DNA from: Lysobacterales bacterium
Lineage (GTDB): Bacteria > Pseudomonadota > Gammaproteobacteria > Xanthomonadales > Marinicellaceae
Length of the DNA stretch: 64,000 nt
Direction of reading: 5' to 3'
Assembly (NCBI GenBank): GCA_026988115.1
Contig: JALSLV010000120.1
Coordinates: forward strand, 1-64,000
The translations under genes were made by a program, and so were the position numbers. A model generated the notes under the pieces. That model was not told the DNA's origin. It did not search any database and saw only the letters and a program-made list of their open reading frames with translations. This document shows, one piece after another, positions 12,898 through 53,739 of this stretch (its first letter is position 1; every line of letters begins with the position of its first letter).

Positions 12898-13185
12898 ATG
12901 AAAAATGGATACGTTTATATCATCACCAATCAAAATAATACAGTTCTTTACACTGGGGTTACGAGTGATTTAATTTCGCGTATAGCACAACATAAAAATA
13001 AATTAATTAAAGGTTTTTCATCGCGATACAATTGTAATAAATTAGTTTATTATGAGATTGGCAGTGGAATGGAAGGCTGTATTTTAAGGGAGAAACAAAT
13101 TAAAGCAGGCTCTCGGTTGAAAAAGATTGAGTTGATAGAATCTGTTAATCCAAATTGGAAAGACTTATACCAAGATTTGCTATGA
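12898..13185 (+). CDS. GIY-YIG nuclease family protein, copy 1
   Basis: This 95-residue single-domain GIY-YIG endonuclease of the UvrC-N/YhbQ type has the variant motif Y5-V-Y7 ... Y18-T-G20 and the catalytic-type Arg28 and His32 in ISRIAQHK. The metal-binding Glu65 is in REKQIK, and the family C-terminus NPNWKDL is present. All key residues are intact, so it is probably active. It has its own extended -10 promoter and a good Shine-Dalgarno sequence (AAGGATAATGAC). It differs from copy 2 by only three bases, two of them silent and one giving Ile77 here versus Phe77. Position inside a palindrome array suggests that it acts on or spreads with that repeat. This is an inference. Confidence 0.9.
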   Translation: MKNGYVYIITNQNNTVLYTGVTSDLISRIAQHKNKLIKGFSSRYNCNKLVYYEIGSGMEGCILREKQIKAGSRLKKIELIESVNPNWKDLYQDLL

Positions 13186-13373: not shown

Positions 13374-13661
13374 ATGAAAAATGGATACGTTTATATCATC
13401 ACCAATCAAAACAATACAGTTCTTTACACTGGGGTTACGAGTGATTTAATTTCGCGTATAGCACAACATAAAAATAAATTAATTAAAGGTTTTTCATCGC
13501 GATACAATTGTAATAAATTAGTTTATTATGAGATTGGTAGTGGAATGGAAGGCTGTATTTTAAGGGAGAAACAAATTAAAGCAGGCTCTCGGTTGAAAAA
13601 GTTTGAGTTGATAGAATCTGTTAATCCAAATTGGAAAGACTTATACCAAGATTTGCTATGA
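13374..13661 (+). CDS. GIY-YIG nuclease family protein, copy 2
   Basis: This 95-residue protein is identical to copy 1 except Ile77 is Phe. The GIY-YIG motif residues (Tyr5, Tyr7, Tyr18, Gly20, Arg28, His32, Glu65) are all kept. Two silent changes (AAT to AAC, GGC to GGT) separate the genes. Retention of an intact frame in both copies suggests either a very recent duplication or selection on the protein. Confidence 0.9.
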   Translation: MKNGYVYIITNQNNTVLYTGVTSDLISRIAQHKNKLIKGFSSRYNCNKLVYYEIGSGMEGCILREKQIKAGSRLKKFELIESVNPNWKDLYQDLL

Positions 13662-18726: not shown

Positions 18727-20988
18727 TTATTTTAATTTATTTTTTAACTTGTCCATAAATAATTGATTCTCTGCGGTCCAAGATTCATTGTAGGCTATTT
18801 TTGCTTGGTTAAGTAGGGTTAATGCTTGCATGTTTTTGCCTAATTTTGATAAAGCTTTGGCTTTGAGTTCAAGGTAGGGGTTGGGATGAGGATTAAATTT
18901 TTCTAGGGAGTTAAGGATGGATAGGGATTTTTTGGCATCCGTTGATAAGAAAATCTCAGCCATTTGATTGCTTGCATCAACAATCATTTTTATGTCTTGG
19001 TTTTCAGTGGCATGTTGAATAATATTTTGCAGTAAATCTTGGGCTTTTTTGTTGTGTTTTTTTTGTTTTTCGTAGCGAGCAAGGTAATAATCCATGTAAA
19101 CTTGAATGCGTTCAAAACCATTTTCTTTAATAAAGGCAACCCGTTGATTCCAGATGTCAATAAAATCATCGAGTTCGTGAGTAAGCAAACGTATTTCGAG
19201 TGTTAAAAAGGCATTGTTTAATAAATAAGCATAATTCTGTGTTTTTAATGAGAGTCGGTAATGTTCTTCTATGCGTTGTTTAGCCCGTAGCCAGTCAAAA
19301 CTATTCATGGCAGCAATCGCATCATGAAAAAGATAGATAAGTTGCGCTTTATCGGAATGGTGCTTTTCTGCCAATTGTTTGATTTTTTTATTTATTTCAA
19401 ATGCTTGGGAAAAATAGCCGCGTTGATTATAGACTTCAACCAAACTGCTTAAACCATCTATTTGGCTTTCTTCGTCATTGGCAAGTTCAGCTAATTCAAT
19501 GGTTTTTTCTATAGTTGATATGGCTTTATCCCATTGGTAGTTATTAAAATAAATGTGTGTAAGTTTGCTTAAGGACAGTATTTGGTGCCTTAAATTGTGG
19601 GCTGATTGCGCATATTGGAAGGCTTTTTGGAATAATTCTTCTACGGTTTTGTCCACTTTTTGGGTTATCATAACACTGCCTTGTCCATAATAACTCTGGG
19701 CATAGATTAAGGGGTTGAGTTGTTCGTCAACGTCAATTGTGGCTGTTTTAAATGCCTTCAAAGCTTTGTCAGGATTGCCCAGTTTTATATATGCTTTTCC
19801 AATTTGTAATTGAATTTTGGATTTTAGTAGCATAGGTAAGTCTAAATGTTGTGATTGAAATAATACTAAGTCGGCGATGAGTTCTTGGTAGTTCTTTTGC
19901 TTATATTTTATGCGTGCTTGCGCCAGTTGAATTTCGGCATTTAATGCCTGTTGCTTAGATAAATCCTTAAGTGTGTTGAGTTGAGATTGAGCGAGAACCA
20001 ATTGGTTTTGTTCAATAAGTAAATCGACTAGATTTAAACGTGCAGTTTTGTTGTTTGCTTCTTTGTCTAACACTTTTTCCAACAAAAGTTTTGCTTGTTG
20101 GTAGTCACCGATAGATTTTAGTCCAATGGCATGCATTAACATCTCGTCGGCATTTAAAATTTCCTCTTGAGTCCATTGGTTGTATTGGGCAATAAACGCC
20201 ATTTGTCCACGCATAACTTGTGAGAGGTCTTTGTTTTTAACGGTGGTTTTTTTGATGGTTTTAAGTCCGTCGGTAAGTTCAATAACGGCTTGGTATACGC
20301 CATCAATTTTGCTAATATTTGAACGCACAATGAGCAGTTCTTTATCGATATTAAAGTGTTTTTCGAGGCTTTGTTTTGTTGTTAGGCTGGTTTCATCGTA
20401 GAGTGTTTGTTCGTTTTGTGAAAAAATGGTAACCGCGGATTTGACGAGTTGACTAAAGCCAGATTGTTCGACCTTATCAATATTTTGGTCAAAATTTGCA
20501 GGCAAAATAATCAGTTGTTTTTTTGTTTTGTATTTTAGAGCGGTTACAGTAGCCTGTTGTTTATGCCTCAATTGCAACACAAGTCCAATGAGAATGAGGG
20601 TAACTGCAAAGGCAAGTAACCACTTTAATTTGTGGTGGTTTTGTTTGGGTTTTGATGTTTCAGAAGGGACGCTTTGCGGTTCTTTTTTGCAATATTTTGC
20701 TTCAAAGCGATAACCTTGTCCGAAATGAGTGATAATGATTTTTGGGTTGCTGGGGTCTTGTTCAAGGTAACTTCGCAGTTTTACCACCATTTGATTTACG
20801 GAATTGGTTGAAACCACGGTGTCCCAGACTTCATCTATCAATGTTTGCTTGGCAATGATTTTATTGGGGTTCTTTAAAAAATAATCCAGCAGTTTTTTTT
20901 GAGTATTGGTTAGTTTTAATTTTTCTTTGCTGCTATAAATATAGCCGCTTTTGCTGTCGTATTGTCGCGTTCCAATTTGATAAGTCAT
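18727..20988 (-). CDS. CadC/ToxR-like membrane-bound winged-helix regulator with TPR-like repeats
   Basis: The 753-residue protein has an N-terminal OmpR/CadC-type winged helix at about 5-96. Its motifs include LTNTQKKLLDYFLKNPNKII, VSTNSVNQMVVKLRSYLEQD and the wing IITHFGQGYRF. One transmembrane helix follows at 121-140 (LKWLLAFAVTLILIGLVLQL). Residues ~280-740 form a long helical region of TPR-like repeats (AIGLKSIGDYQQAKLLLEKV is typical) on the periplasmic side. The layout fits a one-component sensor that binds DNA directly from the membrane. It is divergent from the bspA-like cluster across a 218-bp gap containing 11-bp direct repeats, so that cluster is its probable target. Confidence 0.88.
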   Translation of the reverse strand: MTYQIGTRQYDSKSGYIYSSKEKLKLTNTQKKLLDYFLKNPNKIIAKQTLIDEVWDTVVSTNSVNQMVVKLRSYLEQDPSNPKIIITHFGQGYRFEAKYCKKEPQSVPSETSKPKQNHHKLKWLLAFAVTLILIGLVLQLRHKQQATVTALKYKTKKQLIILPANFDQNIDKVEQSGFSQLVKSAVTIFSQNEQTLYDETSLTTKQSLEKHFNIDKELLIVRSNISKIDGVYQAVIELTDGLKTIKKTTVKNKDLSQVMRGQMAFIAQYNQWTQEEILNADEMLMHAIGLKSIGDYQQAKLLLEKVLDKEANNKTARLNLVDLLIEQNQLVLAQSQLNTLKDLSKQQALNAEIQLAQARIKYKQKNYQELIADLVLFQSQHLDLPMLLKSKIQLQIGKAYIKLGNPDKALKAFKTATIDVDEQLNPLIYAQSYYGQGSVMITQKVDKTVEELFQKAFQYAQSAHNLRHQILSLSKLTHIYFNNYQWDKAISTIEKTIELAELANDEESQIDGLSSLVEVYNQRGYFSQAFEINKKIKQLAEKHHSDKAQLIYLFHDAIAAMNSFDWLRAKQRIEEHYRLSLKTQNYAYLLNNAFLTLEIRLLTHELDDFIDIWNQRVAFIKENGFERIQVYMDYYLARYEKQKKHNKKAQDLLQNIIQHATENQDIKMIVDASNQMAEIFLSTDAKKSLSILNSLEKFNPHPNPYLELKAKALSKLGKNMQALTLLNQAKIAYNESWTAENQLFMDKLKNKLK

Positions 20989-21206: not shown

Positions 21207-24200
21207 ATGAAAAAATTACTGTTTTTGTTATTTTTAAATTCGCAACTGATTTTTGCAGCACCCAGTGATGATTTTGTCTTTAAAATTCAAACCGATAATC
21301 CGGGCTCGTCCAATTCATTGAACTTTTATTTTAGTTTTTTGGAACCGGGCAGTGAGTACCTGAGTGATTATTCGGTAGATTGTGAAGACGATGGAATTAT
21401 TGATTATACCATAACCTTACACGGCACATTTAACCTTACCTGTAGCTATCCAGTGCATGGTACTTATACCATTCGCATTATAGATAACCGTGCCAACCAC
21501 AGAGGGTATGGTTATTTTCATGTATTTGCTGCTAATAAACCGGACATGGAAGATATTGTGCAATGGGGGACGCACAAGTGGACATATATGGCAAATGTCT
21601 TTGAGGACTGCACCAATATGAAGGTGACTGCCACCGATGTGCCTGATTTTTCGCTATTGAGCTCGCTTAATTCGATGTTTAGAAACGCCGATAAAGCCAA
21701 TCCTGATACGACTAATTGGGATGTTTCAACCATAACGAATTTTGGATATATGTTTAGTGACACTTTTAGTGCAAATCCCAATACGAGCAATTGGGATACC
21801 AGTAGTGCAACAAATATGAGACATATGTTCGAAAACACCACACAAGCCAATCCAGATGTCAGTAACTGGAACATGGCGAATGTACATAATACTGCATTCA
21901 TGTTTCGAAATGCCATCAGTGCCAACCCGGATGTCAGCAGTTGGGATACATCGAGTTTAGATTTTCTGCCCCATATGTTTGATTTGGCATTGAGTGCCAA
22001 TCCAGACGTCAGTGCTTGGGATACCGCAAATTTTTCCAATATTGACTACCTGTTTCGCAATGCGTTAAGTGCCAACCCAGATGTCAGTGGCTGGGATACT
22101 TCTGGAATTGACAGCTTTGAAGGTGTGTTTCAAGGTGCAGCCAATGCAACTCCTGATGTCAGCCAGTGGAATACCGATTTGGTCAACAATATGGCGTATA
22201 TGTTTGATGGAGCAATCAGGGCAAACCCTAATATGATGCAGTGGAATTTTTCTAATATTAGTAGTTGTGTTGGCTGTTTGGTACCCAATGCCATGCAAGG
22301 CATTTTCAATGGCGTAAAGTTACCCACAGCCTCTTATGATAATTTGCTTATCCAATTAAATACCCAAAATAGCAATACCGATATAGAATTTGATGCAGGC
22401 AACTCCAATTATTGTTCCCCAGCAGCCGGTGGCGCTCGATTAAATTTGTTTACCAATAAAAATTGGACGATAAGCGATGCAGGACAAGATTGTTCCAGCA
22501 GTCTTGATGCGCTCATTATGGTGGTTAAAACCGACAATCCTGGAAGCAGCAACAACACCCAATTTACCATCCCAACTTATTCATCAGGTATCAATATTGG
22601 TTACAATTATGCTGTGGATTGCGATAATGATGGCAATTATGAAGTTTTAGGCGCATCCACCAGTTACACCTGTCAATATGCCAGTGCTGGCACTTACGAA
22701 GTACGCATTGTCGATACCGCAGGTGATTTAACAGGTTTTCCACGGATTTATTTTAACAATTCAGGAGACCGATTAAAACTGCTGGATGTCAAGCAATGGG
22801 GGAGATTCAAATGGACCAGCATGGTGAAAGCCTTTTTTGGTACTGAGAATGCTGTTTTCACGGCTCAAGACACGCCTGATTTTAGTCAGGTCGCTTCTTT
22901 TAGTAATATGTTTAGAGAAGCCCATCTTGCCAATCCCTATACCAAAAACTGGGATGTATCAAACGCCGTCAATATGCATTGGATGTTTTACCGTGCCTAC
23001 AACGCCACGCCTGATACCAGTAACTGGGATACTTCGCAGGTGAGCTTGTTTGATGGCATGTTTTATGAAGCCTTTAGTGCCAACCCCGATACGTCCACAT
23101 GGCAAACAGCCAATGCCACAGACATGGGTTTTATGTTTTATAATGCCATCAGTGCCAATCCTGATACATCTACTTGGGATATTACCCAAGTCACCAATAT
23201 GGCAAATATGTTTAAGTTTGTCACTTTGCCTTTAGCCAATTACGATGCTATGCTCTCGGGTTTTGCTTCCCAAGCCGTGAACAACAATATCAATTTCCAT
23301 GGTGGATTTTCTCAGTATTGTAATGCGAATCCAGATAGAGCCGCTTTAATAGCGAATAACAGCTGGACCATTTTCGATGGCGGACAAGAGTGTACTCCAG
23401 TCGTACCGCCGTATCCCGTTCAAACAACTTCCCCTGCTGATAATACTCCTAATATTAAAGTTACTTGTGCAGACGTTGACAACATCATTAAAATCTATGC
23501 CTCCGATACAGGGGGTGGTGGAGCAACTTATAATAATACAGTAATAGCAAACTATACTTGTGCCAGTGCAGGTGTGCAATACTTTGATGCACCAGTGGTA
23601 TTGGATGGGGATTTTCAAATGACTGCCACGCAAACTAGATATGGAGATGAATCGGCTCATTCCACTTCCAATCCATTGCTGATTGATACCGTCACCAATG
23701 CACCAACATCAATAATTGTCAATCCGCTTTATGCGACCAATGGCACAGATGTCTATATTAACTTGACTGGTTTAGAAGCCAATGATGTCAATGTGTCCAT
23801 TGTTGGGGCAACTTGTCAGGCACTGGTTCTTCCGCCTTTTGGAAGATTTAAATGCGTGGGAACAGTTGGAGTCAATGGCTTTGATAACAGTGATACCACA
23901 ATCACAGTGACAGATAGTTATGGCAATGTGAATAATGATGCCCATTATACCTTGATTATTGACAACACACCGCCTGCCGACCCGACATCAATCACCACCA
24001 CACCAATGGTTGCCGCCAATGGCACAACCGTGACGACGGTATTGGAAGGTGTGGAGTTAGATGCCACGGTTCAAATTCCAGGGATGACTTGTTCACCAAC
24101 ACCTGCAGATGCAACGGGAACCGTGACATGCACGGGAGTCGTGGGTCAAAATGGCTTGGATGGTGTGGATACGATGATTCGTATATTCGACTTGGCGTTT

Positions 24201-24278
24201 AATGGCAATTTGAATAACTTCACTGGTTTGGTTGTGACGCAAACAGAGGAGATATTTAGCAACGGTTTTGAAAACTAA
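21207..24278 (+). CDS. BspA-type (DUF285) repeat surface protein 1
   Basis: This 1023-residue exported protein has a signal peptide (KKLLFLLFLNSQLIFA) and two modules. Each begins with an Ig-like part (DDFVFKIQTDNPGSSN; the second has VDCDNDGNYE), then QWG-x-KWTSM, then 25-residue BspA repeats of the form MFx5(S)ANPDTSxWxTSx, and ends with an 'YCxxxxxRxxL...WTIxDGGQxC' block. I count 8 repeats in module 1 and 4 in module 2. Residues ~770-1010 hold bacterial Ig-like domains. The extreme C-terminus is EEIFSNGFEN, the short motif shared with other exported proteins here. DUF285 proteins in other bacteria bind host or surface ligands; the ligand here is unknown. Confidence 0.88.
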   Translation: MKKLLFLLFLNSQLIFAAPSDDFVFKIQTDNPGSSNSLNFYFSFLEPGSEYLSDYSVDCEDDGIIDYTITLHGTFNLTCSYPVHGTYTIRIIDNRANHRGYGYFHVFAANKPDMEDIVQWGTHKWTYMANVFEDCTNMKVTATDVPDFSLLSSLNSMFRNADKANPDTTNWDVSTITNFGYMFSDTFSANPNTSNWDTSSATNMRHMFENTTQANPDVSNWNMANVHNTAFMFRNAISANPDVSSWDTSSLDFLPHMFDLALSANPDVSAWDTANFSNIDYLFRNALSANPDVSGWDTSGIDSFEGVFQGAANATPDVSQWNTDLVNNMAYMFDGAIRANPNMMQWNFSNISSCVGCLVPNAMQGIFNGVKLPTASYDNLLIQLNTQNSNTDIEFDAGNSNYCSPAAGGARLNLFTNKNWTISDAGQDCSSSLDALIMVVKTDNPGSSNNTQFTIPTYSSGINIGYNYAVDCDNDGNYEVLGASTSYTCQYASAGTYEVRIVDTAGDLTGFPRIYFNNSGDRLKLLDVKQWGRFKWTSMVKAFFGTENAVFTAQDTPDFSQVASFSNMFREAHLANPYTKNWDVSNAVNMHWMFYRAYNATPDTSNWDTSQVSLFDGMFYEAFSANPDTSTWQTANATDMGFMFYNAISANPDTSTWDITQVTNMANMFKFVTLPLANYDAMLSGFASQAVNNNINFHGGFSQYCNANPDRAALIANNSWTIFDGGQECTPVVPPYPVQTTSPADNTPNIKVTCADVDNIIKIYASDTGGGGATYNNTVIANYTCASAGVQYFDAPVVLDGDFQMTATQTRYGDESAHSTSNPLLIDTVTNAPTSIIVNPLYATNGTDVYINLTGLEANDVNVSIVGATCQALVLPPFGRFKCVGTVGVNGFDNSDTTITVTDSYGNVNNDAHYTLIIDNTPPADPTSITTTPMVAANGTTVTTVLEGVELDATVQIPGMTCSPTPADATGTVTCTGVVGQNGLDGVDTMIRIFDLAFNGNLNNFTGLVVTQTEEIFSNGFEN

Positions 24279-24298: not shown

Positions 24299-26554
24299 AT
24301 GATTAAAAAAATATTAATTTACACGATATTCCTAACGCAAATAAGCTTGGCAGCTCCTAGTGATGATTTTGTTATCGAAGTGGATACAACTATTGTGGGT
24401 TCTACCACTAATCTACAATTTAAAATTAAAACATTAGGATTCGGAGTTGTATACAATTACAACGTCGATTGCGATGCTGTCAATGCAGGCACAAACACCG
24501 CAACTGCCCAAACAGGTGACTATACCTGTAATTATACAACAGCAGGGATTTATACCATCCGTATTTCGGATAATATTGGGGATAAAACAGGGTTTCCTCA
24601 CATTTATAATTTTGCAAACAATGATGCTAAAAAAATAACCGACCTTAAACAATGGGGAACAGGTATTTGGAGTTCTATGGAAAATGCTTTTAGAGGAGCA
24701 GAAAATATGGTGGTTACGGCTACCGATAGTCCTGATTTATCAAATGTAACAAATATGAGTAATATGTTTGCAAATGCAACCTCTGCCAATCCAAATACCA
24801 GTACTTGGAATACAAGCAGTGTAACAGATATGAGTTTTATGTTTTCAAGTGCAACCGATGCTAATCCAAATGTCAGTAGTTGGAATACAAGTAGTGTAAC
24901 AAATATGTTTGGTATGTTTGTGAGTGCAACTTCTGCCAATCCAAATGTCAGCCTGTGGAATACAAGCAGTGTAACAAATATGAGGTTTATGTTTAATGGT
25001 GCAATCGCAGCAACTCCAGATATGAGCGCTTGGGATATTACAGGACTTACTGTTCCAAATTCAATGGATAGTATGCTGCAAGGCATCACCCTACCAACCG
25101 CCTTATACGATGCCACATTGGCTAATTTTAATTCGCAAATCACAGCCAGTGGCATTGTCTTTGGTGTTGGTAACTCAAAATACTGCAATGTCGCAGCGCG
25201 AGATAGTTTGATTAATACCCATGGCTGGACTATTACTGATGGTGGTTTGGATGCAAACTGCCCAGGTCCTTTGGATGATTTAGTTATCGAAGTGGATACC
25301 ACTATAGCGGGTTCAACCACTAATTTACAATTTAATATTAAGACAAATGCTTTTTTGACTTACAACTACAACGTCGATTGCGATGCAGTCAATGCAGGTA
25401 CAAACACCGCCACAGCCCAAACAGGTGACTATACCTGTAATTATACAACAGCAGGGATTTATACCATCCGCATTTCGGATAATGTTGGGGATAAAACTGG
25501 TTTCCCACATTTTTATTCTTTATTAAATGAGGATGCTAAAAAAATAATTGACCTTAAACAATGGGGAACAAGTATTTGGAAGAGCATGTATTACGCTTTT
25601 TACAATGCTTCTAATATGATTGTATCTGCGGTTGATAATCCTGATTTATCTCAAACTTTAGATTTATCTTCGATGTTTAGATCTGCAACAAAAGCGGATC
25701 CAAACACTAGTTTCTGGAATACATCTAATATAACTAAAATGCCAAGCATGTTTAAGGACACAACCTTAGCCAACCCCGATACCAGTACTTGGAATACCAG
25801 CAGTGTAACAGATATGAGCCATATGTTTAGTGGTGCAACTTCTGCCAATCCAAATACCAGTACTTGGAATACCAGCAGTGTAACAGATATGAGTTTTATG
25901 TTTAAAGCTGCAACTTCTGCTAACCCCGATACCAGTGTTTGGAATACAAGCAATGTAACAAATATGAAGTCTATGTTTAATGGCGCAACCTCAGCCAATC
26001 CTGATGTGAGTAATTGGGTTATTACAAGCATTAGTGGAAGCGTATTAAGTAATATGACAAATATGTTTTTGGGGGTTACTTTACCAACAGCCAGTTACGA
26101 TGCCATGCTTGCTCACTTTAACTCTCAACTGGTTCAATCAGGCATAACATTTCATGGTGGTAACTCAAAATACTGCAATGTCGCAGCACGTGATAGTTTG
26201 ATTAATACCCATGGCTGGACTATTACCGATGGTGGTTTGGATGCCAATTGCAGCGATGTTATTTTTGAAAACAGTTTTGAAAATACCGTGGTTTTCAAAG
26301 CAGCAGACAAGCAATTTGTCTATGATTTTTCACAAGTCTCATCTTTAGAGTTGGATGACAATCCACTGTTGATTGCAACAGGAGTCGATTCGCAAAACAA
26401 TACGGTGGTAAAAATTTACCTAAGAAAAGACCTCGGCCAATTACAGATTCGCATGGACAGGCTTATGGGCAAAGAATCCGAAACAAATCAATGGCAAATA
26501 GGAAACTGGCAAAACACTGACAAAAAAAACCTAACAGTGATTCAATGGCAATAG
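24299..26554 (+). CDS. BspA-type (DUF285) repeat surface protein 2
   Basis: This 751-residue paralogue of the preceding gene starts 20 bp after its stop with a Shine-Dalgarno sequence (CAGGAAATAAG). A signal peptide (IKKILIYTIFLTQISLA) is followed by two modules of Ig-like part plus 25-residue repeats, about 4 and 5 repeats, with very regular SANPNTSTWNTSSVTDMSFM units. The last module ends at ~660 with WTITDGGLDANC. The motif VIFENSFEN follows, but unlike its siblings the protein continues for about 85 residues with a beta-rich tail. That tail may have been added by fusion or may be a domain the others lost. The near-identical modules suggest internal duplication. Confidence 0.87.
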   Translation: MIKKILIYTIFLTQISLAAPSDDFVIEVDTTIVGSTTNLQFKIKTLGFGVVYNYNVDCDAVNAGTNTATAQTGDYTCNYTTAGIYTIRISDNIGDKTGFPHIYNFANNDAKKITDLKQWGTGIWSSMENAFRGAENMVVTATDSPDLSNVTNMSNMFANATSANPNTSTWNTSSVTDMSFMFSSATDANPNVSSWNTSSVTNMFGMFVSATSANPNVSLWNTSSVTNMRFMFNGAIAATPDMSAWDITGLTVPNSMDSMLQGITLPTALYDATLANFNSQITASGIVFGVGNSKYCNVAARDSLINTHGWTITDGGLDANCPGPLDDLVIEVDTTIAGSTTNLQFNIKTNAFLTYNYNVDCDAVNAGTNTATAQTGDYTCNYTTAGIYTIRISDNVGDKTGFPHFYSLLNEDAKKIIDLKQWGTSIWKSMYYAFYNASNMIVSAVDNPDLSQTLDLSSMFRSATKADPNTSFWNTSNITKMPSMFKDTTLANPDTSTWNTSSVTDMSHMFSGATSANPNTSTWNTSSVTDMSFMFKAATSANPDTSVWNTSNVTNMKSMFNGATSANPDVSNWVITSISGSVLSNMTNMFLGVTLPTASYDAMLAHFNSQLVQSGITFHGGNSKYCNVAARDSLINTHGWTITDGGLDANCSDVIFENSFENTVVFKAADKQFVYDFSQVSSLELDDNPLLIATGVDSQNNTVVKIYLRKDLGQLQIRMDRLMGKESETNQWQIGNWQNTDKKNLTVIQWQ

Positions 26555-26578: not shown

Positions 26579-29290
26579 ATGATGATTAAAAAAATATTAA
26601 TTTACACGATATTCCTAACGCAATTGGGCGTGTCGGCTCCTAGTGATGATTTTGTCATTCGGGTTAAAACTGATAATCCAGGGTTCACCACTGCTGAAAT
26701 GTTTCGTATTCCAACAAAAAATGCATTGACCTACAATTATAATGTCGATTGCAATGATGATGGCATTGATGAAGTCACTGGGCAAACAGGCGATTATTAT
26801 TGCGACTATTCATTTACTGGCTTAAATTTGGGAGCAGGGACTTACACCATTCGCATCACAGACAATGTGGGTGATGGTACGGGTTTTCCGAGTATAAATT
26901 TCAACAACACTTTTGATCGCTTAAAAATTATCGAAGTGGTGCAATGGGGAACGGGCAAATGGACAAATATGCAACGCAGCTTTTACGGTGCAGAAAATAT
27001 GATTGTTTCTGCAACCGATACGCCTGATTTTTCTCAAGTTACCACCATGGAAAGCATGTTCCGCCGTGCATTTATGGCAAATCCTGATACCAGTATGTGG
27101 GATACTTCGAGTGTAACAAACATGAAAAGCCTGTTTAATGAAGCGCAAGTTGCCACACCCGATACTTCCAATTGGGATACGCACTTGGTAACGGACATGA
27201 GTTTTATGTTTCGCCATGCTTTTTTGGCTCGTCCCATAGTCGGTAGTTGGGATATTTCCAATGTAACTGACATGACTGCCATGTTTAGTGCGGTGAGTTT
27301 GCCTTTTAATACCTATGATAGAATTTTAATTGAGTTTGCCGCTAAGACAGTGCAAATGAATGTGCCATTTAGTGCAGGGACAAGCAATTATTGTTCGCAA
27401 AATGCCCAAAATGCCAGATTGCTTTTACAAAATACCCACAATTGGTCAATTACCGATGGAAATTTATGTGCCTCGCCAGCAATCACCAAAGATTTTGTCT
27501 TTAAGGTTGATACTACCATTCCTGTGATTGCAGGAGGTACATCCAATACAGAATACAAAATTAGAATAAATCCAAGTTATACTTATAATTACAATGTGGA
27601 TTGCAACAATGATGGCAGCGATGAAGGCACTGCTTTAAACTCTGATTTTATTTGTGATTATTCTGCTCTTGGTGGAGCAGGTATTTACACCATCAGAATT
27701 AAAGACAATAATGGTGATAATCGAGGTTTTAGTGGCTTTGGTTTGGTTGGTGCATCTACGGATTATGATCAAAAGAAAATTATTGAGTTGATTCAATGGG
27801 GAACATTTAAATGGCAAACGCTGGAACAAGCATTTCTAAGAGCTTCAAATATGTATGTTACGGCATTAGATATTCCTGACTTTTCCGAAGTGATTAGTAC
27901 CAATAGCATGTTTACTGGAGCCTTTTTTGCCAATCCTACTACTAAGTTTTGGGATACCTCAAATATCGAAGACATGAACTCTATGTTTAAATCCGCACTG
28001 AGTGCAAAACCAGATACCAGTCTGTGGGATACGGCCTTTGTCACCTCAATGGCGTCCATGTTTAGAGGTGCCGTTAGTGCCAATCCCGATACCAGTTCTT
28101 GGGATACATCCAGTGTGCAGAACATGACAGCCATGTTTAGAGGTGCCACTAATGCCAATCCCGATACCAGTTCTTGGAATACCTCCAGTGTAAAAACCAT
28201 GGAATCCATGTTTCGCGGTGCAACAAGTGCCAATCCTGATACCCGCAATTGGGATGTATCTGAAGTGACTACCATGTTGTTTATGTTTAAAGATGTCACA
28301 CTACCAACGGTTAATTACGATGCAATATTGGTTGCTTTTGAGTCCCAAATAGTAAAGAACGGAGTTGATTTTGATGGTGGCAATTCACACTATTGTTCAA
28401 AAGCGGCACAACTGGCTCATGATAAGTTGCAAAGTAATTTTGCTTGGACTATAACTGATTTAGGCTTATGTGCTGCCAGTGACCCGGCAAATGATTTTGT
28501 CATCACGGTAAAAACAGACAACACTGGGTCATCAGCAGATGACCAATTTATGATTTTTGTAAATAATAGTGTCACAAACCATTACAATGTGGATTGCAAC
28601 AATGATGGTGTGAATGAAATATTAGGAGCTACCACCACGCATAATTGCGATTATTCACCTTTTAATTTAAATACAGGGCCTGGTGTTTACACTATTCGCA
28701 TTAAAGATGTTATTGGGGATGGTACGGGGTTGGCTGGGTTTAATTTTTCACCAGATGGCGACAAAATTTTGTCGGTGGAACAATGGGGAACTGCTCAATG
28801 GCAATCGACTTCTTTCATGTTTAGTGATACGTCAAACCTAGTCATTAATGCCATTGATATACCTGATTTTTCACAAGTAATAAATATGTCAGATATGTTT
28901 TTACGCAGTCCATTAGTCAATCCCGATACCCGTCGTTGGGATGTTTCTCAAGTGATTAGTATGAAGGACATGTTTGCATTAGCGATTAATGCCAGACCTA
29001 ATATTGATAGTTGGAATATGTCACAAGTATTATCCATGGAGGAAATGTTTGGATTGGTCAGTTTAGAAAGCAGTTATTATGATCATTTGTTGATACAACT
29101 CGAGGCTAAAAATGTACAACCCAATGTTCTTTTTGGCGGGTCTATTTCCACTTACACTTATTGTTCACAAGCAGCGCAATTGGCTCGCATGAGTTTAATA
29201 AATGATGACTTATGGACTATTGGTGACGGAGGCTTAGATCCAAATTGTCAGCCTCTTCCTGATTTGTTGTTTGCTAATGGCTTTGAATGA
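26579..29290 (+). CDS. BspA-type (DUF285) repeat surface protein 3
   Basis: This third tandem paralogue has 903 residues. Its first ~17 residues (IKKILIYTIFLTQ) are identical to those of protein 2, showing recent duplication. Three modules follow, with about 3, 5 and 2 BspA repeats. Each module is preceded by a calcium-loop-like DCNDDGI/DCNNDGS/DCNNDGV segment and a QWGT-x-(K/Q)W motif. It ends PDLLFANGFE. It begins 24 bp after protein 2 (two possible ATG starts, 26579 or 26582), and a strong terminator follows, so the three genes form one operon. Confidence 0.88.
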   Translation: MMIKKILIYTIFLTQLGVSAPSDDFVIRVKTDNPGFTTAEMFRIPTKNALTYNYNVDCNDDGIDEVTGQTGDYYCDYSFTGLNLGAGTYTIRITDNVGDGTGFPSINFNNTFDRLKIIEVVQWGTGKWTNMQRSFYGAENMIVSATDTPDFSQVTTMESMFRRAFMANPDTSMWDTSSVTNMKSLFNEAQVATPDTSNWDTHLVTDMSFMFRHAFLARPIVGSWDISNVTDMTAMFSAVSLPFNTYDRILIEFAAKTVQMNVPFSAGTSNYCSQNAQNARLLLQNTHNWSITDGNLCASPAITKDFVFKVDTTIPVIAGGTSNTEYKIRINPSYTYNYNVDCNNDGSDEGTALNSDFICDYSALGGAGIYTIRIKDNNGDNRGFSGFGLVGASTDYDQKKIIELIQWGTFKWQTLEQAFLRASNMYVTALDIPDFSEVISTNSMFTGAFFANPTTKFWDTSNIEDMNSMFKSALSAKPDTSLWDTAFVTSMASMFRGAVSANPDTSSWDTSSVQNMTAMFRGATNANPDTSSWNTSSVKTMESMFRGATSANPDTRNWDVSEVTTMLFMFKDVTLPTVNYDAILVAFESQIVKNGVDFDGGNSHYCSKAAQLAHDKLQSNFAWTITDLGLCAASDPANDFVITVKTDNTGSSADDQFMIFVNNSVTNHYNVDCNNDGVNEILGATTTHNCDYSPFNLNTGPGVYTIRIKDVIGDGTGLAGFNFSPDGDKILSVEQWGTAQWQSTSFMFSDTSNLVINAIDIPDFSQVINMSDMFLRSPLVNPDTRRWDVSQVISMKDMFALAINARPNIDSWNMSQVLSMEEMFGLVSLESSYYDHLLIQLEAKNVQPNVLFGGSISTYTYCSQAAQLARMSLINDDLWTIGDGGLDPNCQPLPDLLFANGFE

Positions 29291-29414: not shown

Positions 29415-32400
29415 ATGAAGGGTCTACTTGTTTTATTTTTGTTTCTTATAGTCAATAGTGCTTATGCACAATTGACTTACTCAGGAAGGGTTTATGATAA
29501 ATTGAATCACGGATTGAATGGTCAATACAAAGTTGATGTTCGGTTGCTTGATTTTGAAAATAAAGAACTTTTTAGCCAAACTTTTTCTCAAGTTGTTATT
29601 AAAAATGGCAAATTAAACTTAACTGTTGGGGCAAAAAATCAATCAAAAATTGCATTAATTAAAGCCTCAAGTGATGCGATTTACCTTGAGATTAAACTCA
29701 ATAATCAATTGTATTCTCCTTTAGTTAAGTTAAAGCCCGTTAAGTCGTTGCAAAAAAAACATAAAAACTTTGCCAGTTCGGCTAAAGTTGATGAATATTA
29801 CAGCCGTGTGGTGGCATATCAAGCGGTGAAATTAACGCCCGACAGTTTTAAACACGACGGCATACAAGACAGGCTTGCCCACAATTCGCCACTGACCTTG
29901 CCATTAAAAGGACCTTTAATCAGTCGAGCTTTATCGCAGTTACCTGTTGTCAAACCATCGCTTCAAACAAAAAACGATGAGAATGATGAAGACCAACAGT
30001 TGGCATTTTCTGCAAACGGCAGAAGATACGGCACTCAAAACCCCAATGACAAAGATGATGCTCTGGCACAAATATCCAAACAAACGCGTGCTGTGGCAGG
30101 ATTTACCCCAAATGCCACAATCAGTTTTGAAGGACTTAACCGATTGAGTAATCGTTCTCCCGCGGATGTATCGGCAACGGTGGGAAAAAATCATTATATC
30201 CAAATGGTTAATATGGTTTTTGCGATTTATGATAAAACTGGAAACATGTTAGCAGGTCCATTTAATACCAACAGTTTATGGCAAGGTTTTGGCGGTGCCT
30301 GTGAGGACAATAACAACGGAGATGGCATTGTCTTGTATGACCAACAAGCCGACCGTTATGTTTTGAGCCAATTTGCAACTATCGGTGCACAAAGCGTTTG
30401 TTTTGCGGTTTCAACCACTTCAGATCCCTTGGGAACGTATAATCTTTACGAACTTGCCACGCAAAGAACGCCTGATTATTACAAATTAGCGGTGTGGCCA
30501 GATGAAAACAACAATGCTTATTTTATGGGAACCAATTCAGGTGCACCCAATAGTTATGACGTTTACGCCATTGATCGAGAGTCTTTATTAGCAGGAACAA
30601 CACCAAAACCTGCACAGTTTTTTCAAGGTTATGCCAATTTTTTATTGCCAGCAGACAGCGATGGAAGTCTAAAACCCTCACCAGACAGTGGAGGTTTGTT
30701 TTATACCATGATTGATGGTGGAGATGATTATTTTTCAGATCCTGCCCCTGCCAACGATTCGATTGATTTATACGAATTTAAGCTGGATTGGGATTTTCCT
30801 TCGCAATCCACTTTTAGTTTACTCAAAAGTTTTCAAGCACCTGAGATTGCCGATTTTAACTGGACAGTGTGTGGTCTGTTTCAACGAGGTTGTTTAGCAC
30901 AACCGGTAACAACGGTTAAAATTGACAGTGGTTCGTGGTGGCCGATGCAGCGATTTGTTTATCGAAATTTTGGTACGCATGAAAGCTTGCTTGGCTCGTG
31001 GACGGTTGATGCCTTAGCGGTAGGTGACCACGCAGCCCCACGTTGGTTTGAGATGCGCAAAAGTGGAGTAGGGCAATGGTATTTGCACCAACAAGGCACT
31101 TATGCTCCTGATGAGGCACATCGTTGGATGTCCAGTATTGCTATGAATGGTCAAGGTGATATTGGCATGGTTTATAATGTGATTGATGCCGCTAACGGTA
31201 TAAATCCTGGTATTCGATTTACCTCTCGTCGAAGTAATGAGCCTATAGGTCAACTACGCAATGAAGCTTCGTTAATCGAAGGCACTGGTGTGCAAACTTC
31301 GACTTTTCGCTGGGGTGATTATTCGTCCATAAATGTTGATCCAGTGGATGATTGTCGATTTTGGATGTCGGCACAGTACATTCAAACTACAGACGATAAC
31401 AGTTGGAATACACGCATTGCCTCATTTAACTTTCCCGATTGTGTTTCGCTGGTCGTGGACAAGCCAGCACAAACAGTTTGTACAGTGGATGATTTCGTTA
31501 GTTTTGACTTTAATTTGTCGGGAAATTTCACAGCAACAACCAATCTATCAGTGTTGGGTTGCCCCAGTGGAGGCAACTGCGGATTTAGCCTTAATCCTGT
31601 GATTAATCCCGTGACTAACAGCCAGTTGCAGGTGTCAAATTTGTCTGCAGGCGTTGCAGGCGGAAAATACCCAATGACTTTGATAGCCACCGATAGCGTA
31701 GATGCCAGTTTGGTTTTTACCACGGCTCTGGAATTGGAGGTTGTGGATGGAGTGCCAATGACGACACAATTGCAATCACCGATAAATGTGGCAACGTTAG
31801 TTTCGACAATTTCACGTGTGTTTCAATGGCAGGCAGTCAATAATAGTTCATCCTATTTGTTTGAATTATCCACTGATGCAAGTTTTAACACGATTATTGA
31901 ATCGCATACAACCAGCTCAGCAAAGTATTTATCCAAGGTATCTTTGCTTCCCGAAACACAGTACTATTGGCGCGTGACGCCACAAAATATTTGCGGCAGC
32001 GGCAACACTTCTGTGGTTCGTACTTTTACTTCTGCACCCTTGCCAGGGCAATGCGAAACAGGAATAAGTCCGCAAACCGTAGAATTATACGATTTTGAAA
32101 CAGGAACGGAAGGTTGGACGAGTCACTCCATTGATGGGGCAAACTCGTGGCAATTATCCACCAGTAACCCAAATACAGGCATTCAACATTGGCATATAAC
32201 TGATATTGTTCACCAATCCGATACGGTATTAACCTCACCCATAATCTCATTGCCTCTAGGATTGAACACGCTTACCCTTCATTTTGATAATGCCCAAGAC
32301 ATTGAAGCCAATGGGGTGTCGGCTTGTTGGGATGGCGGCTTTATTGAGGTTTCAGTCGATAATGGCGATACATTCACCGCTATTGCAAGTGATAGATTAT

Positions 32401-32654
32401 TAACCGATAGTTACGATGGTCCCTTGCAATCCAGCAGTTTAGTGCCAGGTCAAAACACATGGTGTGGAAATCCACAAGCCTATCTTCAATCCATAATTAA
32501 CTTAGATGAATACGCAGGGCAAAACATACGGATTCGCTTTCGTTTAGTCACAGATGGGGCGGTAGGTTTTGACGGATGGGATATTGATTCAGTTAAAATT
32601 CAATCCTGTGCCATTGATTTAGGCATTCTTTTTAACAATGGATTTGAGAATTAG
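29415..32654 (+). CDS. Large secreted multidomain protein with NGFE-type C-terminus
   Basis: This 1079-residue protein has a signal peptide (KGLLVLFLFLIVNSAYA). The N-terminal ~100 residues (LTYSGRVYDKLNHGLNGQYK) resemble the fibre-like N-domain of the protein encoded at 36588-37613. Residues ~220-690 look like a beta-propeller-type enzyme-like region (SPADVSATVGKNHYIQMVN, WPDENNNAYFMGTN). A fibronectin-III-like part follows near 770-870 (SPINVATLVSTISRVFQWQA), then a MAM/immune-inhibitor-A-like C-domain (YDFETGTEGW ... GFDGWDIDSVKI). It ends ILFNNGFEN. No catalytic motif is recognised. The export tail suggests it shares sorting with the BspA-type proteins. Confidence 0.78.
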   Translation: MKGLLVLFLFLIVNSAYAQLTYSGRVYDKLNHGLNGQYKVDVRLLDFENKELFSQTFSQVVIKNGKLNLTVGAKNQSKIALIKASSDAIYLEIKLNNQLYSPLVKLKPVKSLQKKHKNFASSAKVDEYYSRVVAYQAVKLTPDSFKHDGIQDRLAHNSPLTLPLKGPLISRALSQLPVVKPSLQTKNDENDEDQQLAFSANGRRYGTQNPNDKDDALAQISKQTRAVAGFTPNATISFEGLNRLSNRSPADVSATVGKNHYIQMVNMVFAIYDKTGNMLAGPFNTNSLWQGFGGACEDNNNGDGIVLYDQQADRYVLSQFATIGAQSVCFAVSTTSDPLGTYNLYELATQRTPDYYKLAVWPDENNNAYFMGTNSGAPNSYDVYAIDRESLLAGTTPKPAQFFQGYANFLLPADSDGSLKPSPDSGGLFYTMIDGGDDYFSDPAPANDSIDLYEFKLDWDFPSQSTFSLLKSFQAPEIADFNWTVCGLFQRGCLAQPVTTVKIDSGSWWPMQRFVYRNFGTHESLLGSWTVDALAVGDHAAPRWFEMRKSGVGQWYLHQQGTYAPDEAHRWMSSIAMNGQGDIGMVYNVIDAANGINPGIRFTSRRSNEPIGQLRNEASLIEGTGVQTSTFRWGDYSSINVDPVDDCRFWMSAQYIQTTDDNSWNTRIASFNFPDCVSLVVDKPAQTVCTVDDFVSFDFNLSGNFTATTNLSVLGCPSGGNCGFSLNPVINPVTNSQLQVSNLSAGVAGGKYPMTLIATDSVDASLVFTTALELEVVDGVPMTTQLQSPINVATLVSTISRVFQWQAVNNSSSYLFELSTDASFNTIIESHTTSSAKYLSKVSLLPETQYYWRVTPQNICGSGNTSVVRTFTSAPLPGQCETGISPQTVELYDFETGTEGWTSHSIDGANSWQLSTSNPNTGIQHWHITDIVHQSDTVLTSPIISLPLGLNTLTLHFDNAQDIEANGVSACWDGGFIEVSVDNGDTFTAIASDRLLTDSYDGPLQSSSLVPGQNTWCGNPQAYLQSIINLDEYAGQNIRIRFRLVTDGAVGFDGWDIDSVKIQSCAIDLGILFNNGFEN

Positions 32655-35385: not shown

Positions 35386-36602
35386 AACGCGCATTAATTT
35401 TAGTCATGGACTCTTTGGGTATTGGTGCCAGTGCCGATGCAAATCTTTACGGCGATGAAGGAACGAATACTTTAGGGCATATTGCACAAGCTTGTTTTGA
35501 AGGAAAATGTGATAACGAACAACGAAAAGGAGTGCTGCATATTCCCAACTTAACACGGTTAGGATTGGCTCATGCATTGGAAGCGAGTTGTGGCAAGCCC
35601 ATGAAAGGAATAGATGAAAGCATACAAGTGCAAGGTGCTTATGGTTATGCGGTAGAACAATCCAAAGACAAAGACACGCCCAGTGGTCATTGGGAAATGG
35701 CAGGGGTGCCTGTACCATTTGCATGGGGAACTTTTCCCAAAACCTCTCCGTGTTTTCCAAAACCATTGATTGATGATTTTATTAATTTGGCAAAACTACC
35801 AGGAATATTGGGTAATTGTCACGCCAGCGGCACCGAAATCATCAAACGCTTGGGCGAAGAGCACATCAAAACAGGTAAACCAATCTGTTACACCTCGGCG
35901 GATTCGGTTTTTCAAATAGCAGCGCATGAAAAATACTTTGGTTTGGATGAACTCATGCGAATCTGCACAATTGCTAAGGGTTTAACCGAAGAATTGAATA
36001 TAACTCGTGTAATTGCCCGCCCTTTTGTTGGTGAAAGGGCTGAGGACTTTATCCGAACAGCCAATCGTCGTGATTTAACCACGCCCCCAATAGAGTCAAC
36101 TTTGCTTGATAAGTTGTCCGCACAAGGAGGAAAGGTTATTTCGGTAGGTAAAATCAATGACATATTTTCAGGACGAGGCATCAGTCAATGCGTCAAAGGA
36201 AAAAATAATATGGAACTGTTTGATGCCATGTTGGATGAGCTGAGAAGTGCAGGGGATAATGCCCTTATTTTTGCCAACTTCGTTGATTTTGATAGCCATT
36301 TTGGACACCGCCGAAATGTGGCAGGTTATGCCAATGCCATTGAAGAGTTTGATAAACGTATTCCTGAGTTGGAATCTTTAATGGGCGAGAATGATATGGC
36401 CTTGATTACCGCCGATCATGGCTGCGACCCAACGTTTAAAGGTTCTGATCACACGCGAGAACACGTGCCCGTGGTGTTTTTTGGACAAAATATCAAACCC
36501 AAAAATATCGGCAAACGAAACTCGTTTGCCGATATGGGTCAGACTTTAGCGGGTTATTTTATGATTGAGCCTTTAGCACATGGCACTTTAATAGACTGTT
36601 AG
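35382..36602 (+). CDS. deoB: Phosphopentomutase
   Basis: DeoB interconverts (deoxy)ribose-1-phosphate and -5-phosphate, linking the PNP/DeoA products to central metabolism. The 406-residue alkaline-phosphatase-superfamily protein has the metal-binding MDSLGIGASADA (9-20), DTPSGHWEMAG with the catalytic Thr, FANFVDFDSHFGHRR, and ITADHGCDPTFKGSDHTREH with the remaining ligands. It is coupled to deoA by a 4-bp overlap. Its last 15 bp overlap the convergent secreted-protein gene. Confidence 0.95.
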   Translation: MKRALILVMDSLGIGASADANLYGDEGTNTLGHIAQACFEGKCDNEQRKGVLHIPNLTRLGLAHALEASCGKPMKGIDESIQVQGAYGYAVEQSKDKDTPSGHWEMAGVPVPFAWGTFPKTSPCFPKPLIDDFINLAKLPGILGNCHASGTEIIKRLGEEHIKTGKPICYTSADSVFQIAAHEKYFGLDELMRICTIAKGLTEELNITRVIARPFVGERAEDFIRTANRRDLTTPPIESTLLDKLSAQGGKVISVGKINDIFSGRGISQCVKGKNNMELFDAMLDELRSAGDNALIFANFVDFDSHFGHRRNVAGYANAIEEFDKRIPELESLMGENDMALITADHGCDPTFKGSDHTREHVPVVFFGQNIKPKNIGKRNSFADMGQTLAGYFMIEPLAHGTLIDC

Positions 36603-37613
36603 CATGAGATTGACAGCTCTTGGGTTGCCATTGCTCAACTTAACACCATAACACCGCAATGTCGTTGAGGAAATTCGATTGCAATGCCCACCCAGGTTGG
36701 GGTCGGATCCCGTTATGGATGTTTGCCAATATCTCGTTGAGATATTTGATGGAAAAGTGATGTCACATTGACCTTCACTGGAGCCATCTGCAATGCTAAT
36801 TGTTCCACTGTTGACATTATTTATGGAGCGGTTGAGCAGAGCTGGCCCTGTAAAACTTCCATTTGAAACACCATTAGTGCAAAAGGCAAAAACTAAGTAT
36901 TTCATCATTCCATTTGAGTTGGCATTTTGTTTTGCATCACCTTCCACGTATAAACCATTAGCAGGCGGATTTGCATTAATGCCAATACTCATGCCGCCAT
37001 TATTTTTTACGACAAATTTTGTTGCACCTCCGATTTGGGCTCGAAATGGGTCATCTGTTACCGAGGATGAGATATGCAGTGTAGAATTTGGATTGTTTGT
37101 ACCAATTCCCACTCTGCCACCCGTGTAGGAAACTTTTGTGCCAACTTTAGTCCAAGGCGATAACGACACAGCCGTAGGAATCCAATCAGAACCATCAAAT
37201 TGCAGCAAGTCATTAGTCGATGCACCCGTTCCTGATAAATATTCAGCTTGTACTGCATAAGGTGTTGCAGCCATACGCTGGCGAGGTGACAAAGGAAAAA
37301 ATGAACCACTTCCAGCAGTCCTTACCGATATTTCTAACCATATTTCACTGCCATCATAAAGAGCATCGCCAAAATCCACTTGTGGAATGTTAAATAATCC
37401 AGCGTTAACGGAAACTCCATTAAAAGTTTGCGAAGCTAGGGTTGTTCCACCAGAGGCGAGTTTATAAGCATCTATAATAATGTCGTAACTGCCGTTGGCT
37501 GGTGTGCCGCCATCAGTAAGTTGTCCTTGGTAGCTAAAACCACTGCCTACAGGAGCTGTTTGTGCCGTAAAAGCGAGTGTGATTAAAGCAAAAAGCATAT
37601 ATAATTTATTCAT
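36588..37613 (-). CDS. Secreted protein with tail-fibre-like N-domain
   Basis: The 341-residue product has a signal peptide (MNKLYMLFALITLAFTAQTA). Residues ~25-120 (GFSYQGQLTDGGTPANGSYD, IWLEISVRTAGSG, PLSPRQRMAATPYAVQAEYL) match a domain common in exported proteins from many environmental bacteria. The middle (GRVGIGTNNPNSTLHISSSV) is a phage-tail-fibre or spike-like motif typical of trimeric fibres. No C-terminal NGFE motif is present, unlike its neighbours. It starts 9 bp after the stop of the upstream small gene (37623-37880), so the two are probably co-transcribed. Function unknown. Confidence 0.75.
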   Translation of the reverse strand: MNKLYMLFALITLAFTAQTAPVGSGFSYQGQLTDGGTPANGSYDIIIDAYKLASGGTTLASQTFNGVSVNAGLFNIPQVDFGDALYDGSEIWLEISVRTAGSGSFFPLSPRQRMAATPYAVQAEYLSGTGASTNDLLQFDGSDWIPTAVSLSPWTKVGTKVSYTGGRVGIGTNNPNSTLHISSSVTDDPFRAQIGGATKFVVKNNGGMSIGINANPPANGLYVEGDAKQNANSNGMMKYLVFAFCTNGVSNGSFTGPALLNRSINNVNSGTISIADGSSEGQCDITFPSNISTRYWQTSITGSDPNLGGHCNRISSTTLRCYGVKLSNGNPRAVNLMLTVY

Positions 37614-37622
37614 GGTATTTTC

Positions 37623-37880
37623 CTATTCAAATCCGTTGTTAAAAATTAATTCTGTGGTGTTTGTTGGGGCAGAGGCTTGCCAAAATCCTCCCGTTAGGGT
37701 GAAAGAGCCTCCCTGCATGGCATTGCTGACATCGACTTGTCCAATACTGGATTTGAGTGTAAAACCACCACCACTCATGCTATCGCCACCGCCACTGTTT
37801 AGGGTGTGTTTTTTCATAACAAATTGTGCTGATGAGGTATTGAAAATCAACAGCAGCGAGAAAATCAAGAAATTCTTCAT
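37623..37880 (-). CDS. Small exported glycine-rich protein with NGFE C-terminus
   Basis: The 85-residue protein has a signal peptide (MKNFLIFSLLLIFNTSSA), a short repeat-like body (SGGGDSMSGGGFTLKSSIGQ then VDVSNAMQGGSFTLTGGFWQ) and the terminal TELIFNNGFE. The body resembles a short beta-hairpin domain found in other exported proteins. It lies just upstream of the 341-residue secreted protein on the same strand. The smallness makes the C-terminal motif stand out as a sorting-type tail. Confidence 0.75.
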   Translation of the reverse strand: MKNFLIFSLLLIFNTSSAQFVMKKHTLNSGGGDSMSGGGFTLKSSIGQVDVSNAMQGGSFTLTGGFWQASAPTNTTELIFNNGFE

Positions 37881-39778: not shown

Positions 39779-39929
39779 CAGAATAGTTCCTTCCTTATTT
39801 AAGTTCAATTTAAACTGTAATATTAAGAGAAAAAGGAATTTGAATCCTGAAGAAGTTCTGATATTTTTCTGAAAAAGTTATGAATTTTTGTATTTTGAGC
39901 AAAAAGAAGTACTCAATACCAGGAAAAGG

Positions 39930-53154: not shown

Positions 53155-53739
53155 CTAATTAATAAACAATGTTTCTCGTTTTTGCTTTGTTTTAAAAGAG
53201 TTAATTTCTTCTGCATGAGAAATTAAATAATCTAATTCATCTAAGCCGTTGATTAAACAGTGTTTAAAGAACTCATTTAAAGTAAATTCTAAGGTTGTAT
53301 TACCTGAAACAATGGTTTGCTCTTCAATATTAATTTCAATATCGTTTTGGGAATCTGTGGCTTTTTGCATTAATTTATCGATGATTTCTTGCGGTTGCTC
53401 GATTAAGAGTAAGCCATTTTTCTTCGCGTTGTTGGTGAAAATGTCAGCAAAACTTGGAGCGATGATGGCATCAATACCCAACTCTTTTATTGCCCAAACA
53501 GCGTGTTCACGAGAAGAACCACAACCAAAATTCGAACCCGTTAACAAAATGGGGGCATCTTTGTATTTTTTTTGGTTAAGAACAAAATCTTTATCGGCTC
53601 GTAATCGTGCAAAGGCGTGTTCGCCATAACCTGTTTGTGACGTGCTGGTTAAATATTGAGCAGGGATAATAATATCGGTATCAATATCAGTCATATTCAT
53701 GGGAATGGCTTTGCCAATGATGTGTTTTATGGCTTTCAT
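53155..53739 (-). CDS. leuD: 3-isopropylmalate dehydratase small subunit
   Basis: LeuD pairs with LeuC to isomerise 2- to 3-isopropylmalate. The 194-residue protein begins with the family pattern of MNMTDIDTDIIIPAQYL and has GSNFGCGSSREHAVWAI, the swivelling-domain signature, and SFADIFTNNAKKNGLLLI. Its start overlaps the leuC stop by 4 bp (ATGA), so the subunits are translationally coupled. Confidence 0.96.
   Translation of the reverse strand: MKAIKHIIGKAIPMNMTDIDTDIIIPAQYLTSTSQTGYGEHAFARLRADKDFVLNQKKYKDAPILLTGSNFGCGSSREHAVWAIKELGIDAIIAPSFADIFTNNAKKNGLLLIEQPQEIIDKLMQKATDSQNDIEINIEEQTIVSGNTTLEFTLNEFFKHCLINGLDELDYLISHAEEINSFKTKQKRETLFIN

Follow-up and report, generated by a model that had tools for sequence, protein, structure and literature searches.

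C-terminal suffixes on exported proteins are known from the GlyGly-CTERM/rhombosortase system (PMC3237569, PMC13393428), which resembles the tail described here, hereafter the GFE tail, in three respects: A short suffix sits at the C-terminus of signal-peptide proteins of many families, the cargo includes nucleases of the ExeM type and proteases, which a type II system takes across the outer membrane, and homologs occur both with and without the suffix. GlyGly-CTERM is, however, tripartite, with a transmembrane helix and a basic end after the motif, and its partner is an intramembrane protease, whereas the GFE tail consists of about ten polar or aromatic residues, lacks both helix and basic end, and has no known enzyme. 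IPTL-CTERM (TIGR04174) takes the same place as the GFE tail on ExeM homologs and differs from it by a transmembrane helix and a basic end. The type A and type B sorting domains of the T9SS are likewise C-terminal tags that take diverse Sec-exported cargo across the outer membrane, but these domains fold as modules, span tens of residues, and occur in Bacteroidota. For type II secretion, a common linear signal is stated as not known (PMC7949064, PMC12369372). The determinants that have been described are, like the GFE tail, flexible elements of the cargo: Flexible loops act in the recruitment of Pel3 (PMC7949064), and secretion of VesB, whose determinant is an Ig-fold, requires the PDZ domain of EpsC (PMC12369372). 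One class of cargo determinant depends on the PDZ domain of GspC (PMC7949064, PMC12369372), and PDZ-dependent information can travel with a grafted domain (PMC12369372); XpsC, the GspC of Xps-type systems, has no PDZ fold (PMC11981180). The determinants of Pel3/PelI and VesB are structural and cargo-specific, whereas the GFE tail would be a shared linear tag. No published description of the GFE motif was found in the searchable literature, which largely excludes subscription journals.

The window analyzed here is a stretch of 64,000 nucleotides from a Lysobacterales bacterium, in which the original prediction had placed the same short tail on five exported proteins with different bodies. All five tails were confirmed in the sequence, and each of the proteins has an N-terminal signal peptide, recognizable by eye and also picked up by a hydrophobicity rule. 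The tail under study, EEIFSNGFEN (24246–24275, forward strand), ends an exported DUF285/PARCEL-repeat protein of 1023 residues (21207–24278; DUF285 E = 1.7e-92), the stop codon following directly. Downstream on the same strand lie an exported DUF285 protein of 903 residues (26579–29290) that ends in LLFANGFE (29264–29287) and an exported protein of 1079 residues with an InhA-like MAM/choice-of-anchor J-like region (29415–32654) that ends in ILFNNGFEN (32625–32651). On the reverse strand, LIFNNGFE (37626–37649) ends an exported Gly-repeat protein of only 85 residues (37623–37880), and QVFSNGFE (38063–38086) ends an exported protein of 582 residues, counted from a TTG start (38060–39808). The 85-residue protein has at least seven paralogs in the same genome, every one of them tailed, and its AlphaFold model has a pLDDT of 55. 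A paralogous exported DUF285 protein of 751 residues (24299–26554, forward strand) carries the variant motif IFENSFE internally (26261–26281), about 90 residues before its C-terminus. The extra domain of about 90 residues that follows (FKAA..QF.YDF...LGQLQIRMD...W) is common to two DUF285 paralogs (window 26261–26554 and L045:754-4662). A further match in the window (53531–53548, reverse strand) was rejected as a chance occurrence inside a frame of 22 codons.

The pattern holds throughout the genome. Scanning all 3,510,836 bases in 121 contigs (the window being contig 120) for codons of F-x-[ND]-G-F-E gave 60 matches, compared with nine for the reversed pattern that served as control. Each match was read in frame: 49 of the 60 end zero to two codons before a stop, a placement for which we estimate about 1% if matches fell randomly in genes of about 330 codons. 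The remaining 11 comprise chance matches in tiny or antisense frames, one tail with a six-residue extension, and internal or N-terminal copies in exported proteins. The tailed genes range from 85 to more than 1200 codons, and two alignments revealed no homology between the proteins beyond the tail. Codon choice varies freely within the motif, with all four glycine codons and both codons each for Phe, Glu, Asn, and Asp in use; selection therefore acts on the peptide, which rules out a DNA or RNA repeat as its source. A signal-peptide-like N-terminus is present in 50 of 54 tail proteins and in 121 of 272 other open reading frames (odds ratio 15.6, p = 1e-11), as scored by a simple hydrophobicity/charge rule of thumb to which membrane proteins also respond. 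One of these signal peptides is Tat-like and the others are of the Sec type. Two tail genes (in L002 and at L047:3904-4929) have no obvious signal peptide and look broken or mis-started. Among the 60 matches, no cytoplasmic protein was found to end in the motif. The predicted enrichment on exported proteins was thus recovered, and the equal frequency on cytoplasmic proteins that would have spoken against it was not observed.

Near the C-terminus, the tails follow the consensus [DE]-x-[ILVM]-F-x-[ND]-[GS]-F-E. Conservation extends to positions that the search left free: Among 133 tails, [DE] occupies position −3 in 66% and [ILVM] position −1 in 96%. Of 151 distinct tails, 106 stop exactly at the glutamate and 30 run one or two residues further, which makes 136 in all. 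A tail typically ends in Glu or in Glu plus Asn, Asp, Pro, or Ser. The residues after the motif, usually zero to nine and rarely up to 21, are non-hydrophobic, and a variable linker precedes it. Variants beyond the search pattern include NSFE, NDFE, KHGFE, KTGFE, RDGFQ, and RDGFD. In three exported proteins the motif lies at the mature N-terminus, just past the signal peptide region (TVFDNGFE, L121:5770-8151; DLFKNGFE, L122:6059-6922; AVFSDGFE, L047:11514-12314), and other copies are internal. Such copies suggest that recognition relies on an exposed linear epitope in the motif rather than on its carboxylate. Direct reading of the tails bears out that they are devoid of the helix and basic end of LPXTG, PEP-CTERM, and GlyGly-CTERM signals; the hydrophobic helix near the C-terminus and the basic C-terminal cluster of MYXO-CTERM are likewise missing. 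Known tail families were rejected as the identity of the GFE tail, as none of them matched: No Pfam or NCBIfam tail model hit any of 53 proteins from this genome, and no NCBIfam tail model hit any of 34 proteins from relatives; the GFE tail itself is not modeled in either library. No GFE protein tested from this genome and its relatives matches TIGR04174 at its C-terminus, whereas the exchange partners discussed below do, and no TIGR04183- or TIGR04131-like T9SS domain scored above cut-off; a single window protein gave an internal TIGR04183 match below threshold (E = 0.25).

As the original prediction suggested, similar tails occur in other Lysobacterales proteins. Across 151 Lysobacterales genomes, in which the motif was counted at any position because exact counts of GFE followed by a stop miss extensions of one to nine residues and TAG stops, we found 3104 matches versus 153 for the control, with a maximum of 113 per genome. 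The tail is accordingly not confined to this genome and absent from its relatives, named ones among which, as judged by the type-A GspD introduced below, include Marinicella species. Elsewhere in the class, across 364 genomes, the motif is close to background: The class-wide search yielded matches in 26 of 369 genomes (a set that includes this genome and G012), mostly one each, compared with about 12 control matches.

The bodies that carry the tail are those of cargo typical of type II or surface proteins elsewhere, as far as domain matches tell. They include M12, S8, and M14 proteases, ExeM/NucH nucleases, a LapA-like aminopeptidase, a CelK-like cellobiohydrolase, and pectate and polysaccharide lyases, as well as InhA/M36-like MAM domains, choice-of-anchor J, Q, and D domains, FG-GAP, DUF11, and DUF285 repeats; in other bacteria, GlyGly-CTERM or MYXO-CTERM is found on several of these families, as their NCBIfam names indicate. 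ExeM allows the suffix to be compared between orthologs, as its nuclease domain has a conserved end (SSDHDPLLVGF...). In genomes that lack the PDZ-type type II system (see below), ExeM stops there, has an unrelated end (G007, G018, G063), or carries IPTL-CTERM (G097). In genomes with this system, some ExeM homologs are tailless, several of them lipoprotein-like, and others have a clean GFE suffix, e.g., SSDHDPIVVGLELAPLPDEIFSNGFEETGPIMR (G034), SSDHDPIVVAIVPALVFADGFE (G072), ASDHDPVMVGLFGLPDPMFQNGFE (G003), and ASDHDPVLIGLFDSDLIFRDGFQ (G012). Among the sampled orthologs, every GFE-suffixed ExeM comes from a genome that has the PDZ-type system. IPTL-CTERM stands in the GFE position on the ExeM homologs of both G097 and G119, and in G056 it is found on the neighbor of a GFE protein. 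A clean suffix that is absent from orthologs or replaced by IPTL-CTERM identifies the tail as an exchangeable module. The GFE tail is a lineage-wide, modular, protein-level tag on exported proteins. The original interpretation is supported in part: A modular C-terminal motif shared by exported Lysobacterales proteins is borne out, and it may mark a separate sorting or anchoring route.

The tailed proteins of this genome combine Sec or Tat signal peptides (50 of 54 by the rule of thumb) with a genome-encoded type II system, both of which are expected of type II cargo. GspD is present in 150 of the 151 Lysobacterales genomes, G019 being the sole genome without any. We defined a second, PDZ-type class of type II system, type A, by searching all 151 genomes with the type-A GspD of this genome: PDZ-type systems matched at 43–100% identity, and Xps-type and Rhodanobacteraceae-type secretins gave partial matches, mostly of 30–44% over half the protein. 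A third GspD type was noted in Rhodanobacteraceae-like genomes of family f2 that are without the tail (G086 (L193), G131, G081, G061); it is about 33% identical to type A, and 42–44% in its C-terminal half. In several genomes the type-A locus reads rho-trxA-rhlB-gspC-gspD-gspE-gspF-ftsE-ftsX-rpoH, and its GspC consists of a T2SSC and a PDZ domain. No pseudopilin genes were seen near the loci read in this genome and its relatives, and T2SSK (PF03934) was rejected as an indicator of additional pseudopilin sets, its matches being weak and mostly to other helix-hairpin-helix proteins. The locus of this genome lies on contig C112, with an M14 carboxypeptidase downstream that ends in NPDVLFKNSFE; an alpha/beta hydrolase gene (L181:8122-9042) stands between its gspC and gspD.

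Tails and the type-A system are co-distributed. Defining a GFE-rich genome by at least eight excess motif matches, we found 63 GFE-rich genomes among the 83 that have type-A GspD, versus 5 among the 68 that do not. The separation is sharpest in two families: In f12, all four type-A genomes are GFE-rich (25–57 matches) compared with none of the 20 others (0–4 matches), and in f2 the lone type-A genome has 68 matches, the other 23 having 0–3. G019, which is devoid of GspD, has five matches, equal to background, and none of the four sampled was real. A profile search for type-A GspC agrees with the GspD distribution, and the apparent exceptions G118 and G148 were rejected, as their gspD is broken by the assembly and a full-length type-A GspC is present. 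Permuting the type-A labels among genera within families gave p of about 1e-5, a signal that comes mainly from f12 (p = 6e-4) and f2 (p = 0.08); f1 gave 0.25, and f8, with 0.40, shows no association. Exceptions nevertheless exist in both directions: In G063 and G097 (f8, 97–98% complete) no type-A GspC or GspD was found, and three and four, respectively, of four sampled tails are real; G048 and G059 have tails without type A as well, but are just 90% and 77% complete; and Wenzhouxiangella-like genomes (f9, genus g12) have kept the type-A system with 0–5 matches, mostly not real. Strictly speaking, therefore, the tail neither requires the type-A system nor follows from its presence, and the link between the two is a correlation, to which vertical inheritance and the joint loss of the type-A system with a true partner may contribute. 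In many other Gammaproteobacteria with a GspD 40–45% identical to type A, the tail is near background, which indicates that the system functions there without such a tag. The best candidate for a co-distributed partner is the PDZ-type type II system, and not the processing protein originally envisaged.

We put the probability at about 45% that the GFE tail is a linear, end-located export or sorting tag on Sec-exported proteins (one of them Tat-exported), probably for the PDZ-type type II system. A tailed protein would be exported to the periplasm via Sec, once via Tat, by its signal peptide and fold there. Its flexible suffix, [DE]-x-[ILVM]-F-x-[ND]-[GS]-F-E plus zero to about nine residues, would then dock in a machine of the outer membrane, which would export the protein to the surface or into the medium. 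The likeliest machine would be the GspC-GspD-GspE-GspF system whose locus is flanked by rho/trxA/rhlB and ftsEX/rpoH; the candidate reader would be the PDZ domain of GspC or a further component of this system. This proposal fits the need of VesB for the EpsC PDZ domain and the graftable PDZ-dependent domain (PMC12369372) as well as the role of the Pel3 loops (PMC7949064). The few N-terminal and internal copies fit poorly to a classical, carboxylate-binding PDZ ligand. Within this proposal, docking by GspC, the absence of cleavage, and the final location are inferred. The stronger version, a lineage-universal linear type II signal in which a suffix of about nine residues, read by the GspC PDZ domain or a part of the same machine, exports dozens of unrelated folded proteins, is one that we advance tentatively and would not yet bet on.

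Another possibility, and one to be taken seriously even if the odds are against it, is that the tail addresses a different, Lysobacterales-specific receptor for sorting or anchoring, e.g., a protein of the outer membrane or cell surface that would retain tailed proteins by beta-strand addition, or a transpeptidase, and that the type II correlation is secondary, reflecting carriage of the cargo or co-loss in clades. The two-way exceptions and the tail-free type II systems outside the order would follow naturally, the choice-of-anchor bodies and the exchange with IPTL-CTERM suggest surface retention, and the motif can stand at either end of a mature protein. Against such a receptor stand the very sharp co-distribution with type A in f12 and f2 and the want of a candidate gene: The neighborhoods read in low-count genomes held no recurrent enzyme or receptor beside isolated tailed genes. 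The same neighborhoods yielded no candidate for a dedicated protease or sortase-like enzyme that would cut in or before the motif and attach or release the protein, as for LPXTG, GlyGly-CTERM, or the T9SS C-terminal domain. The exact terminal position, the many-to-one distribution, and the overlap with GlyGly-CTERM cargo resemble such systems, but the tail has no transmembrane helix or basic end, one to nine extra residues and N-terminal copies fit C-terminal transpeptidation poorly, and the few N-terminal and internal copies argue against sortase-type cutting, which makes processing improbable. Least probable is that the tail is no signal but serves structure or stability, as a beta-hairpin end-cap or by protecting the protein from periplasmic proteases or marking it for them, or that it is what remains of a longer jelly-roll domain start (FxDGFESGDxSAW), for although x-[ND]-G-x is a favorable tight-turn sequence and one of the 151 distinct tails runs on as GFESGDTSAWTTTVP, the bodies are unrelated and include one of 85 residues, ExeM orthologs manage without the clean suffix, and the tail is strictly restricted to some Lysobacterales and absent from cytoplasmic proteins.

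Judged from sequence, the GFE tail looks like a C-terminal sorting signal without earlier description and without a membrane helix. If the type II reading were proved, the tail would count as a signal of a new kind and the first shared linear one against the background of PMC7949064 and PMC12369372; type II substrate choice would become directly testable via a short, graftable tag that about 50 proteins per genome carry. Orthologs that differ in having the tail and lineages from which one PDZ-type system has been lost would serve as natural contrasts. If the reader is something else, the tail would still define an undescribed class of helix-free C-terminal sorting signals. The exported proteome of many uncultured Lysobacterales would be readable from sequence, and the tail could become an export tag in biotechnology.

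Several minor observations concern the surroundings of the tailed genes. They often lie beside genes for ECF sigma factors or Ser-Thr kinase-TPR or winged-helix-TPR regulators (L128, L144, L031, L109, L045, L048, and window 18727–20988), which suggests regulated surface-protein islands. The gene of the 85-residue Gly-repeat protein repeatedly adjoins that of a larger exported "FTYQGEL" protein without a tail (window 36588–37613, reverse strand; L046:6323-7558; L047:9649-10869; L119:2325-3443; L124:5004-6794), whose C-terminus is often a hydrophobic stretch with tyrosine (LMLTVY, FMLIVY, MVLIY); the two may work as a pair. Elsewhere in the window, two apparently near-identical open reading frames of 95 residues (MKNGYVYIITNQNNTVLYTGV...; 12898–13185 and 13374–13661), GIY-YIG-like by eye, are repeated at a distance of 476 bases. 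Finally, exported proteins at window 49577–51826 (forward strand) and L129:555-4655 end in ...LGDPSLKL and GDPSLRLVY, reminiscent of the ends of C25 (gingipain-like) peptidases.
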